In this document: positions 16,988 through 24,717 of the stretch, one piece after another
Position numbering within the stretch: the first letter of the stretch is position 1
How the letters are laid out: every line of letters starts with the position of its first letter
Source of the DNA: Oligoflexales bacterium
GTDB taxonomy: Bacteria > Bdellovibrionota_B > Oligoflexia > Oligoflexales > RGVZ01
NCBI GenBank assembly: GCA_947476525.1
Contig: CANJQY010000008.1
Coordinates: 1 to 38,035 of the forward strand
DNA length: 38,035 bases
Direction: 5' to 3'
The notes under the pieces: generated by a model
The model's input: the letters and a program-made list of their open reading frames with translations, nothing else
What the model was told of the DNA's origin: nothing
The model's database searches: none
Made by a program: the position numbers and the translations under genes

Positions 16988-18787
16988 ATGTCTATTTCTG
17001 AAAAATTTTATGCTGGTCTTTATTCCGATATAGTTGCGGAGTATGTAGATTCATCGGCTCAAAAAAAGACTTCCTCAAATGACGCAGTCTTTATAACGGG
17101 AGCGCTTTGTTTTTTAGCGCGCTCTAGTGAGGCTGATGCTGTTTTTGATTCATATTCGGCAAATATGACATTCCTGGAATCCATGGAAGCTCGCCTTTAC
17201 CTTGTTTTTGCTCACCGCAGATTGCGAAAAAAGCTGTCTCGGGCCCATGCCAGCAAAATACTTTTGACAATGGCCATAGAGCTCCGCCGAGACAAATCGG
17301 CAGGCGACCTCGCGAAATTTTTTTTCTTTTGCGGTTTGGCATTTTTTCGTTATACCGATGCGCGGCTAGTTTTGACTCAAAAATGGGCCCGACGGGCCTA
17401 CGACCATGCGTTTCGTGCGAAATTTCCGTTCGGACGCCTACTTAGTTATGATTTGTTGGGGCATAGCCAGCTCAATGTCGGGGACATTCGCGCGGGCATG
17501 AAAAACCTACTGAACTCCGCTTCAATAGCTGAAAGTCTGGGCCGAGGTGCGATAGTCCAAGCCACACAGGCCACACTGCGTCTATACAGATCGACGTTCG
17601 GATTGGATACTGCGGCCAATTTGGAGGAGGAACTTCGCGGCGCGATTCGCGCCTGCTCGTTTGAAAACAGCTACACGTTAGCTACCTTGTATCTAGAACA
17701 ATCTCGACTTCAAATTTTGATTGGCCACGGACAATTGGCAGAGCAAAGCCTTAGGGATGCTGGAGAATGGATTTACAAGCTTGACTTGCCATTTTTAGAT
17801 GCGAACTTAAGCTTTCGATATGCTTATTTATCGGTACTGCAGGGTGACAACCAAAAAGCTCTCGATTTGCTGCGGTCTGCACGCCTTCGATTACTCGAAG
17901 CAAACGATGCCAGCATGGAGGTGAGAATTCTTGGGCTTGAGGCCAGAGTTTTAAATGCTCAAGGTAAGACCTTAGAAGCAGACCGGTTGACACTAGATAT
18001 TCAACGTCTTGAGTCGAGATCTGGGCTGCTGATAGCACACAGGATTAACGGAAGGCTAGGCGTCTCCGCAGTGACACCCCTGAAGCGTGGTGAAGATTTT
18101 TTAGGAGATCTCATGGATGATCTTGCCAATCAGACAACTGATATCAGGGAGCGAGTGCTGCAGTCAGGTTTTCTAGGGCTGATTCCTAAGTCGGTTGGCG
18201 TCGGGCAATTTAGTCAAGCAATTCTATTCGGATTTGTAGGTGCCTCCGTTACAATTTTAGCAAAAGGATTTGTTCGGCATGACCGTGATGGGTGGCCAGA
18301 ACTTGTGAGAAAACTCTTTCTAGCCATGTCAGCCCATAAGGAATTAACAAAGGAAGAAATTACCGAGCGCGTTTGGCAACAAGGTTACAACCCTCTTCGT
18401 CATGATCCATTAATTTACGCACTGGTTGCCCGGGCACGAAAAATGATCGAACCGTATGATTCATGGCTTACGATTAGTGACGGGAAATATTCCCTGGTTC
18501 CCGAAGTTCAAATCCATGATGTGTCTCAGGTCAATTCGGCATCTGATTTTGCCATGCGAATATCACATGATATTATTTCAAAAAATCCTAATCTTCCCGT
18601 ACGGCAATCGCGACTTCTCGATTTATGCGAAAAAATGGGGGCTATTACTAATAAGGATGTTTGCGAGGCCTTAAAAGTCTCTGAAGTCACTGCTGGGCGT
18701 GATTTAGCTGCTCTCGTTGCATTGGGGCTTTTACGCCGAATAGGTAAAGGTCGAGCCACTTCCTACACAACCCTAACAAATCTATGA
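16988..18787 (+). CDS. Putative transcriptional regulator: TPR-like helical repeats plus C-terminal winged-helix segments
   Basis: Helical repeat middle region; C-terminus 'HKELTKEEITERVWQQGYNPLRHDPLIYALVARARKMIEPYDSWLTISDGKYSLVPE' (OmpR-like wHTH) and 'ITNKDVCEALKVSEVTAGRDLAALVALGLLRRIGKGRATSYT' (DeoR/MarR-like HTH). Confidence 0.6.
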   Translation: MSISEKFYAGLYSDIVAEYVDSSAQKKTSSNDAVFITGALCFLARSSEADAVFDSYSANMTFLESMEARLYLVFAHRRLRKKLSRAHASKILLTMAIELRRDKSAGDLAKFFFFCGLAFFRYTDARLVLTQKWARRAYDHAFRAKFPFGRLLSYDLLGHSQLNVGDIRAGMKNLLNSASIAESLGRGAIVQATQATLRLYRSTFGLDTAANLEEELRGAIRACSFENSYTLATLYLEQSRLQILIGHGQLAEQSLRDAGEWIYKLDLPFLDANLSFRYAYLSVLQGDNQKALDLLRSARLRLLEANDASMEVRILGLEARVLNAQGKTLEADRLTLDIQRLESRSGLLIAHRINGRLGVSAVTPLKRGEDFLGDLMDDLANQTTDIRERVLQSGFLGLIPKSVGVGQFSQAILFGFVGASVTILAKGFVRHDRDGWPELVRKLFLAMSAHKELTKEEITERVWQQGYNPLRHDPLIYALVARARKMIEPYDSWLTISDGKYSLVPEVQIHDVSQVNSASDFAMRISHDIISKNPNLPVRQSRLLDLCEKMGAITNKDVCEALKVSEVTAGRDLAALVALGLLRRIGKGRATSYTTLTNL

Positions 18788-19309
18788 CTAATGCTTTTTA
18801 GACTTTACGATGCCAATGGCCTCGTGCGACAACACGCGTTGAGCGTCTTGAAAAAAAGAGATTTGTTCCAAATTTAAATCAGTTCTCGTCTCTAGATAAG
18901 CATTTGCTGATGCGACATCCAATAAAAACAGTCCATCCGAATTCTGCTCATAAACCATTCGGCAAGAAAAGTCTCGTGCATCGCCTTCGCAATCTGCTCT
19001 GACACTGCCATCAGCTGAGGACATTCTCCAAACCGAACCCTGAAACTCTCCTGTAAGGATGAACCGGTGAGGAGTGGTGCCGTCAAGCTCAAAGGGAAGT
19101 GCGTAATCTAGTTTTGCCAGATTGCCTGTGATTCTAAATTTTGCTCGAACAAGTTCAACGACAGCGTCGACTGCCATGGATTCGCCCTTAGGAACGGTGT
19201 AGGTCATAATTGCGCGAGCTGCGGCAGCTGTCGAAATTACACTTAAGCTAGTGATTACTAGAATAGCCGCTAGCAAATTTTGCATCACCTTAGTTTTGGA
19301 ATGTTTCAT
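18788..19309 (-). CDS. Small secreted protein, unknown function
   Basis: Signal peptide-like N-terminus MKHSKTKVMQNLLAAILVITSLSVISTAAAA; no family recognised. Convergent with the upstream regulator ORF. Confidence 0.55.
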   Translation of the reverse strand: MKHSKTKVMQNLLAAILVITSLSVISTAAAARAIMTYTVPKGESMAVDAVVELVRAKFRITGNLAKLDYALPFELDGTTPHRFILTGEFQGSVWRMSSADGSVRADCEGDARDFSCRMVYEQNSDGLFLLDVASANAYLETRTDLNLEQISFFQDAQRVLSHEAIGIVKSKKH

Positions 19310-19452: not shown

Positions 19453-20430
19453 TCACCATGGCATAGTTGCCTTTGACTCCGTCGTGGATATCTTTTGAGT
19501 TTCTTCCGCGAGTTTTCCTCCCCACACAACTAAGACATACCCAAAAGATAAAGAAAAAAGACCGAAGACCTTCATGACGTGAATTGAAATCAATTCAATC
19601 GGTCCACTGACAGCAATCAATACAAGCATTTGCCTTAGCCTAGGTGAAATCGTGTTTGCCTTAAAGGCAGCCCAAATTAGTATTCCTGCAAACGAGCAAA
19701 GACCTGAATCAACTGCCCAATGAGGTCCAACTACAAGGCGTGACAATATGGCTGAACCAATTGGAATTGAAAGTAGTGACCCGAAGGATAATGAAGAAAA
19801 AAGGCTCAATACAGTCAATATCGCAAATGATAACGGTAAGTTATCTTGAAAAAAAATCTGGCCATACCCTTTAATCGCACCAAGGACAGAATTCATCATT
19901 GGAAAAAATTCGGTACCGTTTGGCGTGAATGGGTCCATCGCGAATGATAGCTCGGGATTTAATTGGCTTATGGCTTGAAGGCACCACATAGCCGATACAT
20001 AGGGCATTACCATTAGTGGCAAATTCCAAACACGAAGGCAACGATCAAATATCACCACAAACAAGCCGCAGACTAATGCTAGTCCCACGATAGCAACAAA
20101 TGCAATGCCATTGGTTGGGAAAAAACTCGAACAGGCGAATCCCAAAAATATACCATTTAGTGCGAACAAACCGTCTCTTCGCAATTTTTCATTTCCAGAA
20201 AAAAAACCACTTGACCATTCAACGGCCAACAGTCCAATAATTCCAAATGCGGCCACTCTTGGCGCAAAAATTCCTACTACCAGAAGAAGCATTCTCCCAA
20301 GCAATTGATTACTTGAAAAAAATATTTGAGCCATCGTCGTGGATACTAGTCTTTCAATTTTGAATAGGCTCGCGCCCCACGCTTTTGATATATCTCTGTA
20401 GCACGCCACCACACCGTAAATCGCTGTCAT
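19453..20430 (-). CDS. Urea transporter (UT/SLC14-like) family membrane protein
   Basis: Multiple TM segments and 'IKGYGQIFFQDNLPLSFAILTVLSLFSSLSFG' matching the UT signature. Start ATG 20430 overlaps the upstream stop (ATGA). Confidence 0.7.
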   Translation of the reverse strand: MTAIYGVVACYRDISKAWGASLFKIERLVSTTMAQIFFSSNQLLGRMLLLVVGIFAPRVAAFGIIGLLAVEWSSGFFSGNEKLRRDGLFALNGIFLGFACSSFFPTNGIAFVAIVGLALVCGLFVVIFDRCLRVWNLPLMVMPYVSAMWCLQAISQLNPELSFAMDPFTPNGTEFFPMMNSVLGAIKGYGQIFFQDNLPLSFAILTVLSLFSSLSFGSLLSIPIGSAILSRLVVGPHWAVDSGLCSFAGILIWAAFKANTISPRLRQMLVLIAVSGPIELISIHVMKVFGLFSLSFGYVLVVWGGKLAEETQKISTTESKATMPW

Positions 20431-21035
20431 ATCAGCGCCCACTTTCCCTGCCCCACCGTCAAGGTGCCCCAATTTAGAGGAACTGGCGAATTGACATTCA
20501 ACCCCACGACACCGTTGATTCCACGAGAAAATTCTGAGTCTAGCCACACGCTCTCCGTTGGGTCATATATCCGAATCCTAGAGTCACCAGCCTCGGCAAC
20601 TGCGCAAACTTCGTGGTAGACATATTCCTGCCCGATCCATGGAATTGTCTGAAAAATATTCGCCCATTTCAAATTCCAATGTTGAACGTAGGTCTTTGGC
20701 TGATTTAAAATTACTTGGGCAGGGTATACGTCTACGCCTTGCTGTGCGAAAATTTCTCGAGAAAGCGCGGCAAAAACGCCGCAGTCAATCTGTGATTTTC
20801 GAACCGTTTCACACCAACTTAGAGGCCATTGTACCGGTCCCCATTTAAAGCGTTGTCGCAACCAAGTTGGTGCGTGTAGCCGATGTTCCTCTGAACGGTT
20901 AAAGCTCAAAGATCGATGCATGTCGACTAACCAGCGCCGCGCTAGCTGGCAGCACTCCCCGTGATGGACCAACTCTGAGTGGCGGGCTCCAATAAACTCA
21001 AAATGATTGACTAACGCGACCGTATCCAAATTCAT
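20427..21035 (-). CDS. Transglutaminase-like (Cys-His-Asp) protein
   Basis: 'KSQIDCGVFAALSREIFA', 'YVYHEVCAVAEAGDSRIRIYDPTESVWLDSEF' give a Cys / His / Asp arrangement; AAAGGAG RBS before ATG 21035. Confidence 0.6.
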   Translation of the reverse strand: MNLDTVALVNHFEFIGARHSELVHHGECCQLARRWLVDMHRSLSFNRSEEHRLHAPTWLRQRFKWGPVQWPLSWCETVRKSQIDCGVFAALSREIFAQQGVDVYPAQVILNQPKTYVQHWNLKWANIFQTIPWIGQEYVYHEVCAVAEAGDSRIRIYDPTESVWLDSEFSRGINGVVGLNVNSPVPLNWGTLTVGQGKWALI

Positions 21036-23253
21036 AACTCATGCTCCTTTCGTAAGCTCCTGCATCAGCAATAATAATCCGATCACCAATTTTGGTAGAT
21101 TTTGGAAAGCTAACTCCATCGGCTAATATGTCATCTTCCATACATATTCTCCCAAGTATGCGAGCCCTTCCTGCACCAATGACTTCCATTTTTAGCTCGT
21201 TCAATACAAACATACGGTGGGGATACACTCTCGCCAATGGAAGCTCTGAAATGCAAGTGTCGACCACCACTTCACTGACTTCGCCTCCACGTCGACGAAT
21301 ATCCTGTATTGACGTAACCATGAGCATGGTATCTTGCGATAGTGCTCGGCCAGGCTCAATGGTGACCGATTCCAAACTAGGTATTCGTGCTTTTGCGAAC
21401 GACATAAGTTCTGACCAAGGAACATGACTAAAATCTCTGGGATGATAGCCTCCCCCAAAATCAATCATGGCGATATCACGTCCGGCGTGAGCTGAAATGG
21501 TCGTTGCCCACCCAATCGCCGATTCGACGGCATCCTGCCAGTGCCCCTTTCCAATTAGATTTGACGCCATGTGGACGTGAAATCCAAGCTTTATACCCGC
21601 AGGGACTCGTTGTATAAGGGAGGTTGCACGGGCAAGGTCATCATATGAATCCAGTTCTGCGCCGAATCGTGACCCGAATCCGGGTATTTTGAGGCGAAGT
21701 CCCCAAACTTTATCTTGCCGATCCGATCTAATTAGCCGCTCAAATTCATCTAAGGAATCACAAAATACAGCTGCCAATCCTTGGTTGTCGTCGATAGTTC
21801 GCGGCCACCATTTTGCTGGCCCATTTAAAATGATTTGATGACGTTCCCAGCCAAAGGTTAATGCATGTTCAACTTCAGCCAAACTGATGGCTTCGGCCAT
21901 AAGTCCGCAATTAAAAGCTTCTGTCATATATAATTTGTCAGGACAGGTTTTAATGCTATAGGCAACGTTCAATTTGCATCCACCACCTAGCACAGAATTG
22001 ATAACTTTTGCGGATGCGAAACGACTTGCTACCTTACTTTCAAGGCAGATTCTAACTGGCGTTGAATTTTGTTCGGTCGCGATCTTCGCCCAATTAGCCT
22101 CCTCAAGTGAGGCGGTTGGACCATTTTCAGCTGGCGCCAGAACGTCTGCTCTGGTGTTCCCCTGTGTATTTTGAGATTCAAGTATGTCAGATTCGAGCTG
22201 ACCAAATGAAGCTCCATACTTACCCAATGCTGTTACCTGCCCGTGCTCAGGCTGTGTCGCCTGCGGCAGCGAAATATAGCTTAATACTGGAATCTCGGTT
22301 ACGATTCGCGTGAATTCATCCGTAGTAGGATTTTTGTTCGCAACCATGCTAATCCCGCTAGCTTCAGCCACAAGCAATGCAGGGAGATTGATGCCAGCAA
22401 TAGTCGATCCGTAAATCCATGCTGGGAATCTAGGGTTAAACTCCATCAACCAAAAGGTCTCAGATTCATCTCGAATTAGCTCAAACTCACCACCACCTGT
22501 CCACTTAATTTGAAGCACCGCATCACTCACAATATCCAATTGCCGCTTAGACAAAGGCCTGATTTTTCCTGACCAAGTTTTCCCGTCGACTGTGGTGACA
22601 CGCTTTTGCATGTGGACCGCTCCACATAGCTTTCCGTCAATCGCTGAGAAGCAAATGGACTCTTCCAAGCCACGAACATGTGCTTGATAAAAAACGTGTG
22701 CGTAAGATCCTGCATTCGCCAATTTCAATCGGGCATTGTCGAGGTCACGCCAGCAACTGACAAATTGAGCTCCATGATATGGCCCTTTGACCCAAATGCG
22801 CCAAGAATGCTCCCTACAAAAGTCATACAGTGCTTGATCGTCTCCGTTTTCAATATAAATATCAGGCGTTTTAAACGGCAAAAAACCTGCAATTCGGACA
22901 AACGGTTTATATGCAAAGTGTAGAGATGATTTGGTTGGAATGAGCAGGTGTGGGTTAGGCAATACATTCTGGCTTAGCCACGCTACCTCAATGTCAAGGG
23001 CGGACAAAATAAAATGCGTATCACTAAAATCTCGAATCGTTTGGGCATGGAGCGAATGATCGAGCAAATCCCATGATGGAAACACCAAACGTTCAGTAAG
23101 CGACGCATCATGAAGGCCCGATGCGCCGTTCCAATAGTCCATCCCAATAATGGTAGCCTCTGGCCATGCATCTCTGAGAGACTTAGCTATTCCCAAGCCC
23201 GCCGACGGGCTCGGGCCACAGTAGAAACCTGAAATGAGAATTTTTGGCGACAT
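20998..23253 (-). CDS. Fusion: N-terminal ATP-grasp ligase domain and C-terminal fold-III PLP-dependent (Orn/DAP/Arg-type) decarboxylase domain
   Basis: ATP-grasp: 'GGGEFELIRDESETFWLMEFNPRFPAWIYGSTIAGINLPALLVAEA'. Decarboxylase: 'LNVAYSIKT' (PLP Lys), 'FHVHMASN', 'MIDFGGGY', 'VTIEPGRALSQDT', 'GRICMEDDILADG', 'DAGAYERSMSYEFGYGR'. Confidence 0.85.
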   Translation of the reverse strand: MSPKILISGFYCGPSPSAGLGIAKSLRDAWPEATIIGMDYWNGASGLHDASLTERLVFPSWDLLDHSLHAQTIRDFSDTHFILSALDIEVAWLSQNVLPNPHLLIPTKSSLHFAYKPFVRIAGFLPFKTPDIYIENGDDQALYDFCREHSWRIWVKGPYHGAQFVSCWRDLDNARLKLANAGSYAHVFYQAHVRGLEESICFSAIDGKLCGAVHMQKRVTTVDGKTWSGKIRPLSKRQLDIVSDAVLQIKWTGGGEFELIRDESETFWLMEFNPRFPAWIYGSTIAGINLPALLVAEASGISMVANKNPTTDEFTRIVTEIPVLSYISLPQATQPEHGQVTALGKYGASFGQLESDILESQNTQGNTRADVLAPAENGPTASLEEANWAKIATEQNSTPVRICLESKVASRFASAKVINSVLGGGCKLNVAYSIKTCPDKLYMTEAFNCGLMAEAISLAEVEHALTFGWERHQIILNGPAKWWPRTIDDNQGLAAVFCDSLDEFERLIRSDRQDKVWGLRLKIPGFGSRFGAELDSYDDLARATSLIQRVPAGIKLGFHVHMASNLIGKGHWQDAVESAIGWATTISAHAGRDIAMIDFGGGYHPRDFSHVPWSELMSFAKARIPSLESVTIEPGRALSQDTMLMVTSIQDIRRRGGEVSEVVVDTCISELPLARVYPHRMFVLNELKMEVIGAGRARILGRICMEDDILADGVSFPKSTKIGDRIIIADAGAYERSMSYEFGYGRVSQSF

Positions 23254-23838: not shown

Positions 23839-24717
23839 TCACTCCCATTTTGGACCCAGGAGCCACTGATATACTAACTTCCCTGCGGCAGTGTCCTTCC
23901 AAGTCGGATTATTCCGAGGCATGTAGGCTGTTTTAATTGCAGACGTAGCCGCGGCCTTTACAGCCAAAAGGTCTTCTCGAGTCTTTAGGGAAAAATTGCG
24001 CCCCCCGTCATGGCACCCCGCACAAGCGGTTGTGACAATCTGAGCGATGTCTGCGTACTTAACCGCTGTGCCCACCGGCGGAACAATGTCGGGCTGGCTA
24101 CATGGATCAATTGAATTTGATACAGGGACTTCACCTGCACCAACCTGGCCGCTACGTCCGTGTTGCCTATTATGGTCGTCGTCATTATCGTCGTCATTAT
24201 CGTCGTCATTATCATCGTCATTATCATCTTCAGCGCGGTTAGAATTTTTGAGAATTGACGAGGCCTTGATACAGTCATTTGGCGGCGGAGCCACGCTCAG
24301 TTCACCGTCTTCGACCATTTTTAGAAAACTCAAGACAACGGCCTTCTCATCATCATAAAGAGGTGTCGCAAAGCGCGGTGGCATCACTGTATCAGAAGTT
24401 TCTGATTCGATACGCGTTCGCATAGCTCTAGCGAGTCCACGATTCTCCTCCTTTTTAAAGAATTCGATGGTGGCAATTCCGTTGAGAATTGTCGGGGTAT
24501 TCGACGGCACAAAATCAGAGCGCTCAGCCGAATGACAATTGGCACATTTCGTAGCGAGGACAGCGCCAGCGCCAGAATCCCAACCTGTAATGCCAGTGTT
24601 AACGGAAACATGATCAGGCCTTTTTGCTCCAAGGTCGCCACTTCGACAACTTTGATTCAAAATTGCGAGCAACAAAAGAAAAGCCGAGTTCAATGGCAAG
24701 TTATTTTTTTTGTTCAC
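23839..24717 (-). CDS. Di-haem c-type cytochrome-like lipoprotein
   Basis: Two CxxCH motifs (CANCHSAE, CAGCHDGG), lipobox LNQSC, Asp/Asn-rich linker. Confidence 0.75.
   Translation of the reverse strand: MNKKNNLPLNSAFLLLLAILNQSCRSGDLGAKRPDHVSVNTGITGWDSGAGAVLATKCANCHSAERSDFVPSNTPTILNGIATIEFFKKEENRGLARAMRTRIESETSDTVMPPRFATPLYDDEKAVVLSFLKMVEDGELSVAPPPNDCIKASSILKNSNRAEDDNDDDNDDDNDDDNDDDHNRQHGRSGQVGAGEVPVSNSIDPCSQPDIVPPVGTAVKYADIAQIVTTACAGCHDGGRNFSLKTREDLLAVKAAATSAIKTAYMPRNNPTWKDTAAGKLVYQWLLGPKWE
24176..24231. repeat. 12-bp tandem repeat (tcgtcgtcatta) encoding a DDDN linker in the cytochrome
   Basis: tcgtcgtcattatcgtcgtcattatcgtcgtcattatcatcgtcattatcatc read directly; in frame with ORF 23839-24717. 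Confidence 0.85.

Follow-up and report, generated by a model that had tools for sequence, protein, structure and literature searches.

The window analyzed here is a 38,035-nucleotide (nt) stretch that makes up an entire contig (CANJQY010000008.1) of the 2.7-Mb Oligoflexales bacterium assembly GCA_947476525.1 (G000; 87.75% complete). It carries a conserved gene cluster of three overlapping genes, all on the minus strand. They encode a fusion of an ATP-grasp ligase with a fold-III pyridoxal 5′-phosphate (PLP) decarboxylase, a transglutaminase-like (TG-like) protein, and a member of the urea transporter (UT) family (Table 1). We see about an even chance that this unit encodes a small-molecule, natural-product-like pathway in which a conjugate is formed by ligation and then decarboxylated, cysteine enzymes process it, and the UT-like protein moves the product. 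An initial annotation, made from the letters of the window alone, had described the 751-aa fusion, a 38-nt overlap between the fusion and TG-like genes, and an ATGA junction between the TG-like and UT genes. All three features were found, with the UT start at ATG 20430. The decarboxylase half is recognized by Pfam and the ATP-grasp half, sub-threshold there, by its conserved residues.

We use "type A" for the fused arrangement of the window and "type B" for loci in which ligase and decarboxylase are separate. The in-depth searches covered two phyla (the second phylum being sampled, and many genomes being incomplete) plus plasmids, phages, and viral contigs. Among named records, those with the nearest relatives are metagenome-assembled genomes under the labels Pseudobacteriovorax, Oligoflexia, and Bdellovibrionales. 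The type A three-gene order and its overlaps recur in two bacterial phyla, indicating that the unit is more than chance. Units with the same gene order were found in L022 (identity to the window of 69, 66, and 42% for the fusion, TG-like, and UT proteins, respectively) and L023 (47, 38, and 25%), in L024 and L025, and, in the phylum to which L024 belongs, also in L048, L049, L050, and L051; in L051, a contig end leaves only the last 104 residues of the fusion. In all nine three-gene loci, 20-38 nt are shared between the fusion and TG-like genes, and an ATGA start is available for the UT gene in eight of them. The TG-like family was detected in 3/65 genomes of the home phylum and 7/293 of the second phylum, and all 10 of these genomes (among 358) carry the fusion on the same contig. 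Active-site residues are kept down to ~33% identity. The unit is a real conserved gene cluster: the co-localization across genomes and the conservation of active-site residues in orthologs, both named as checks in the initial annotation, were found, the latter in both fusion halves and in the TG-like triad.

The view of the three genes as one unit was borne out as far as recurrence is concerned, while their inseparability was not. In L052, no UT gene adjoins the fusion and TG-like genes, and type B loci have a UT without a TG-like gene. A Streptomyces zaomyceticus plasmid carries a full-length fusion (33.6% identity) and a TG-like gene (28%) that overlap by 4 nt, again with no adjacent UT gene. 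On this plasmid, a desaturase-like gene (L042:22905-24422) directly follows the pair, at the place expected for the UT gene. A viral origin of the unit was rejected, since no relative was found in viral_contigs or the phage collection.

The C-terminal half of the fusion matched the Pfam models Orn_Arg_deC_N (E = 4.9e-11) and Orn_DAP_Arg_deC (E = 2.3e-6). When a profile was compared with the PDB, the best match was FigC/FslC, the N-citrylornithine decarboxylase (7kh2, E = 1.8e-35); the next solved relatives followed at ~1e-21 and BtrK at 1.1e-13. The homologue alignment showed conservation of Lys435, HxH, GGG, EPGR, Cys704-Met705, and GAY in this half. A tree was built that included LysA-like sequences of relatives and Methanocaldococcus jannaschii diaminopimelate decarboxylase (DAPDC) and no ornithine decarboxylase (ODC), BtrK, or SbnH sequence. 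In it, type A, type B, and FigC formed one clade apart from the LysA/DAPDC sequences (ultrafast bootstrap [UFBoot] 100). Within the tree, type A (97) and type B (99) were each monophyletic, and FigC grouped with type B (100). The acidic residue beside the catalytic Cys is replaced in FigC by Met355 (C354-M355), which has been tied to a larger substrate (PMC7857480). The same Cys-Met mark is present in all type A and type B homologues, L052 not being aligned at this position. The FigC residues H357 and R387, which contact citrate, correspond to D707 and M738 in the window protein, and the NCBIfam FslC model gave 69.8 bits, below its 500-bit cut-off. Judged by these residues, the decarboxylase half likely acts on a conjugated substrate, and a citryl conjugate is unlikely, since D707 and M738 take the place of the citrate contacts.

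The ATP-grasp half remained sub-threshold in Pfam (ATPgrasp_Ter, E = 1.1e-4, 22.4 bits versus a cut-off of 29.1), as it did for all of its nearest families (PRK12767/ATPgrasp_Ter). In an alignment, Lys156, Glu256, Glu258, Glu271, Asn273, and an ExNPRFPAW motif were common to 10 homologues of type A and the catalytic ones of type B, showing that the ligases of both types belong to one subfamily. The GKYGAS motif in the linker of the window protein aligns with a KHG motif after the YxKP tail of type B decarboxylases, a correspondence that is suggestive only. One type B locus (L120:2832-4968) has two tandem ATP-grasp genes, the second of which has lost catalytic residues.

We propose that the ATP-grasp half would turn a carboxylic acid into an acyl phosphate and join this activated form to an amino acid through its amino group. 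Decarboxylation of the conjugate by the PLP half, comparable to the action of FigC on N-citrylornithine, would then give an N-acylated amine, so that ligation and decarboxylation would both occur within one polypeptide. The TG-like Cys-His-Asp enzyme, plus a C39-like cysteine enzyme in most relatives, would trim or transfer the acyl group, and the UT-like protein would move the small product, or a precursor, across the inner membrane. The amide chemistry and the roles in processing and transport are inferred, as is the reaction order, which is based on the FigC likeness of the decarboxylase half. Counting for this pathway are the conserved unit, the constant association of the fusion with the TG-like family, the FigC-like ancestry, and the intact catalytic residues in both halves. 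The scheme resembles the FigA/FigC (FslA/FslC) rhizoferrin pathway, in which a ligase acts first and an alanine-racemase-fold decarboxylase then acts on the conjugated amino acid; with FigC, it shares Cys-Met at the catalytic Cys, an NGPxK motif, and the common clade. In contrast to that pathway, where the FigA-type ligase is a nonribosomal peptide synthetase-independent siderophore (NIS) synthetase, the window ligase is an ATP-grasp enzyme and is fused to the decarboxylase in one chain. The window unit also lacks the citrate-binding residues, has UT-like and TG-like partners, and was not accompanied by recognized siderophore genes.

The opposite order of reactions, in which an amino acid is first decarboxylated to a free amine by the PLP half and this amine is then coupled to a carboxylate by the ATP-grasp half, is unlikely in our estimate. 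It has a real precedent in MfnA and MfnD of methanofuran synthesis, where decarboxylation precedes ligation, and both domains that it needs are present and intact in the fusion. However, the decarboxylase half groups with FigC and away from LysA/DAPDC (in a tree without ODC and BtrK) and bears the Cys-Met mark, a feature associated with conjugated substrates of larger size. Grouping and mark together favor ligation first, followed by decarboxylation of the conjugate.

The sister arrangement, type B, comprises 16 loci (L026-L030 and L111-L121) with the ligase and decarboxylase genes adjacent to each other. A PqqD-like gene precedes the two enzymes in 14/16 loci and was not seen in L118 and L121, both of which are cut by contig ends. 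A UT or UT-M23 gene follows in 14/16; L029 and L030 contain the M23 part without a recognized UT. In the M23 peptidase of these fusions, the zinc-site residues are conserved. In all 16 type B decarboxylases, the catalytic domain is preceded by an N-terminal tail with the motif Y-x-x-P; in L121, this tail comes after a probably over-long start. Among LysA-like controls, 3 of 14 rows matched YxxP, all as YGTP inside the catalytic domain and none in an extension ahead of it. In the type B loci, the motif was found in the decarboxylases only, apart from chance-like matches in short ORFs. The best NCBIfam match of the PqqD-like protein was lasso_PqqD_Strm, below its cut-off. YxxP is the lasso-leader motif recognized by RREs, the recognition elements of ribosomally synthesized and posttranslationally modified peptide (RiPP) systems (PMC12710340). 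Like lasso-peptide RRE/leader pairs, type B thus has a PqqD-like protein adjoining a YxxP tail. Unlike them, it carries the tail on an enzyme, its loci showed neither a precursor peptide nor a lasso cyclase, and a profile scan of type A loci revealed no PqqD gene. The combination of an RRE protein and a precursor peptide that would define a RiPP or lasso locus was found in neither type.

The ligase, decarboxylase, and UT of type B remain in one locus that also has a PqqD-like protein and a YxxP tail, suggesting that the ligase and decarboxylase work as a pair. From these sequence features, we infer that type B may dock its enzymes via the PqqD-like/YxxP pair and that type A may replace docking by fusion; the tail could also serve another role. 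More broadly, and only tentatively, the ligase and decarboxylase may have to act as one machine, with type A using fusion and type B a RiPP-type recognition pair to bring them together. Small-molecule synthesis would then have recruited leader recognition to dock one enzyme to another, and a membrane protein derived from a UT would handle a product other than urea. The two types yield a testable claim, namely, that docking between two enzymes of a nonpeptide pathway can rely on a recognition element of the RiPP style.

We regard as quite unlikely a carrier-based route. Here, a protein or peptide carrier with its gene outside the locus would be loaded with the amino acid and hold it during decarboxylation, and the cysteine enzymes would then release it in the manner of BtrH-like acyltransferases. 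The butirosin enzymes BtrJ, BtrK, and BtrH provide the precedent, with a shared logic of ATP-grasp enzyme, fold-III decarboxylase, and cysteine acyltransferase. Cysteine enzymes with papain or transglutaminase features do adjoin the fusion, and the PqqD-like protein and YxxP tail of type B represent a peptide-recognition theme. However, the YxxP motif is essentially only on the decarboxylase itself, and no acyl carrier protein was found near the window unit. A carrier or precursor peptide was rejected, since type A loci contain no conserved small ORF and no carrier motif of note, in agreement with the initial annotation, which had seen no carrier gene nearby. Of the BtrJ/BtrK-like logic put forward there, the ligate-and-decarboxylate scheme stands, whereas the closest solved decarboxylase is FigC/FslC and not BtrK.

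The TG-like ORF had no match in Pfam or NCBIfam, and comparison of its family with PDB sequences gave nothing up to E = 5. The Cys-His-Asp triad read from the window sequence proved to be invariant in 11 aligned homologues (Cys85, His141, and Asp158, in transglutaminase order), as are His24, Cys28, Cys29, and Cys75. In a predicted model with a predicted local distance difference test (pLDDT) score of 63, the Cys is at a helix start and the His and Asp are on strands. Fold matches of this model (PeiP, VASH, TGase, and arylamine N-acetyltransferases) were all weak, with E ≥ 0.0098. An amidase or acyltransferase is the natural guess for this protein. In most relatives, a gene for a C39-like protein of ~145-180 aa adjoins the unit, mostly divergent and upstream; its family matched Pfam C39 in one member only (E = 0.0075) and had no match by PDB sequence. 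In the genome of the window (~88% complete), the best hit for this gene had an E value of only 0.027 and is not credible. The C39-like proteins contain the motif QEHPMGCAVACV and, further along, GH and MNPW.

The UT protein of the window matched PF03253 (E = 2.2e-26, 93.2 bits versus a cut-off of 25) and solved urea transporters over its full length, and is thus a member of this fold family. It scored below the cut-off of the NCBIfam urea-transporter model (55.4 versus 274.6 bits). Slot residues were compared in one alignment with the solved urea transporter 2 sequence (8xd7). Going by solved urea transporters, the urea slot is presumably lined by two Thr and two Gln/Glu. In the window protein, both Gln are kept, and the repeat-1 Thr is Val and the repeat-2 Thr is Ser, a departure from the urea-slot pattern. 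The nine type A UTs all have Val or Ile at the repeat-1 Thr and Ser at the repeat-2 Thr; the repeat-1 Gln position is Gln in six, and the repeat-2 position is Gln in three, Glu in one, Arg in four, and Leu in one. In all 13 type B UTs, the repeat-1 Thr is Ser and the repeat-2 Gln is lost, the alignment being uncertain in L120 and L121. In contrast, all seven stand-alone UTs of the sister phylum keep both Thr and the repeat-1 Gln, with Gln (six) or Glu (one) at the repeat-2 position.

Linkage to the pathway genes was also recorded. UT-family genes occur in 6/65 home-phylum genomes, all beside ATP-grasp/PLP genes. In the second phylum, the family scored above cut-off in 26/293 genomes, seven of which have the high-scoring stand-alone UTs (at least 230 bits) and no ATP-grasp match; at the two such loci examined (L124 and L125), no other family member lies within ~5 kb. 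Of the remaining 19 UTs, 3 are at contig ends; for the other 16, a matching ATP-grasp gene lies on the same contig, a few kb away at most. Because urea-slot residues are lost in linked UTs and kept in stand-alone UTs, urea is an unlikely cargo, and the linked proteins probably carry something other than urea. The urea-type channel suggested initially for the type A protein was not supported, and "urea transporter" is not an appropriate annotation for some genes of the UT family. Besides the slot, linked UTs differ from the family in that most type B loci encode them as fusions with an M23 peptidase. A role in nitrogen handling, with a genuine urea or amide channel serving urea-type uptake, amide hydrolysis, and amine recycling, is improbable, since despite the clear fold family membership and full-length match, the repeat-1 slot Thr is lost in 9/9 type A proteins while 7/7 stand-alone UTs keep both Thr, and the distribution is patchy (10 TG-bearing genomes among 358).

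Several points weigh against the proposed small-molecule pathway. D707 and M738 occupy the FigC citrate contacts, so that a citryl conjugate is not expected. The TG-like fold call comes from a weak model, the best fold match of which had an E value of 0.0098 and a TMq of 0.36. The UT family consists of passive channels that conduct small polar molecules, and such a channel fits an N-acyl amine poorly unless the amine is small. Furthermore, since L052 and the Streptomyces locus have no UT, transport is not part of the core. In the open-access literature, to which the search was mostly confined, no description of the gene combination was found, and a prior mention is possible. The pathway looks undescribed, as the initial annotation had supposed. 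If the proposal is correct, a single chain that forms an amide and decarboxylates it in two steps would mark an undescribed small-molecule class, encoded in bacteria of the Bdellovibrionota type and on at least one plasmid of Streptomyces, and the fusion would give a sequence handle for finding more such pathways.

Table 1. Features of the window and of related loci
Feature	Position	Strand	Remarks
ATP-grasp/PLP-decarboxylase fusion ORF	20998-23253	-	751 aa
ATP-grasp ligase domain, fusion residues 1-310	22324..23253	-	conserved residues and motif across homologues
Fusion linker, residues 311-390, GKYGAS motif	22084..22323	-	alignment with type B; low pLDDT
Fold-III (alanine-racemase-fold) PLP decarboxylase domain, residues 391-751	20998..22083	-	Pfam PF02784/PF00278; FigC/FslC-like
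TG-like ORF	20427-21035	-	202 aa; Cys85-His141-Asp158
UT-family ORF	19453-20547	-	364 aa
UT-family protein from ATG at 20430	19453..20430	-	325 aa; start fitting its relatives
173-aa protein, signal-peptide-like N terminus, possible associated gene	18788..19309	-	homologues adjoin the unit in L022 and L023
599-aa protein, C-terminal DeoR-type helix-turn-helix (HTH), possible regulator of the unit	16988..18787	+	HTH_DeoR, 2.8e-8
C39-like protein	L022:4966-5409, L023:7435-7881, L024:7439-7885, L048:13354-13863		beside the unit
Type B loci	L026:5253-10114, L029:5720-10496, L111-L121		PqqD-like, ATP-grasp, YxxP-tailed decarboxylase, UT usually M23-fused

Further genes were noted around the unit. 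The 173-aa protein had no Pfam match, and homologues of the 599-aa HTH protein adjoin the unit in L022 (55%) and L023 (33%). At several second-phylum loci (L024:11885-13515 and L048:5942-7611), two genes come after the UT gene, one for a possible outer-membrane barrel with a weak match to Gcw_chp and one for a BPL_N-domain protein. Upstream of the unit, at positions 23839-24717 of the window, lies a gene whose cytochrome c-type product contains a linker of DDNDDD repeats.

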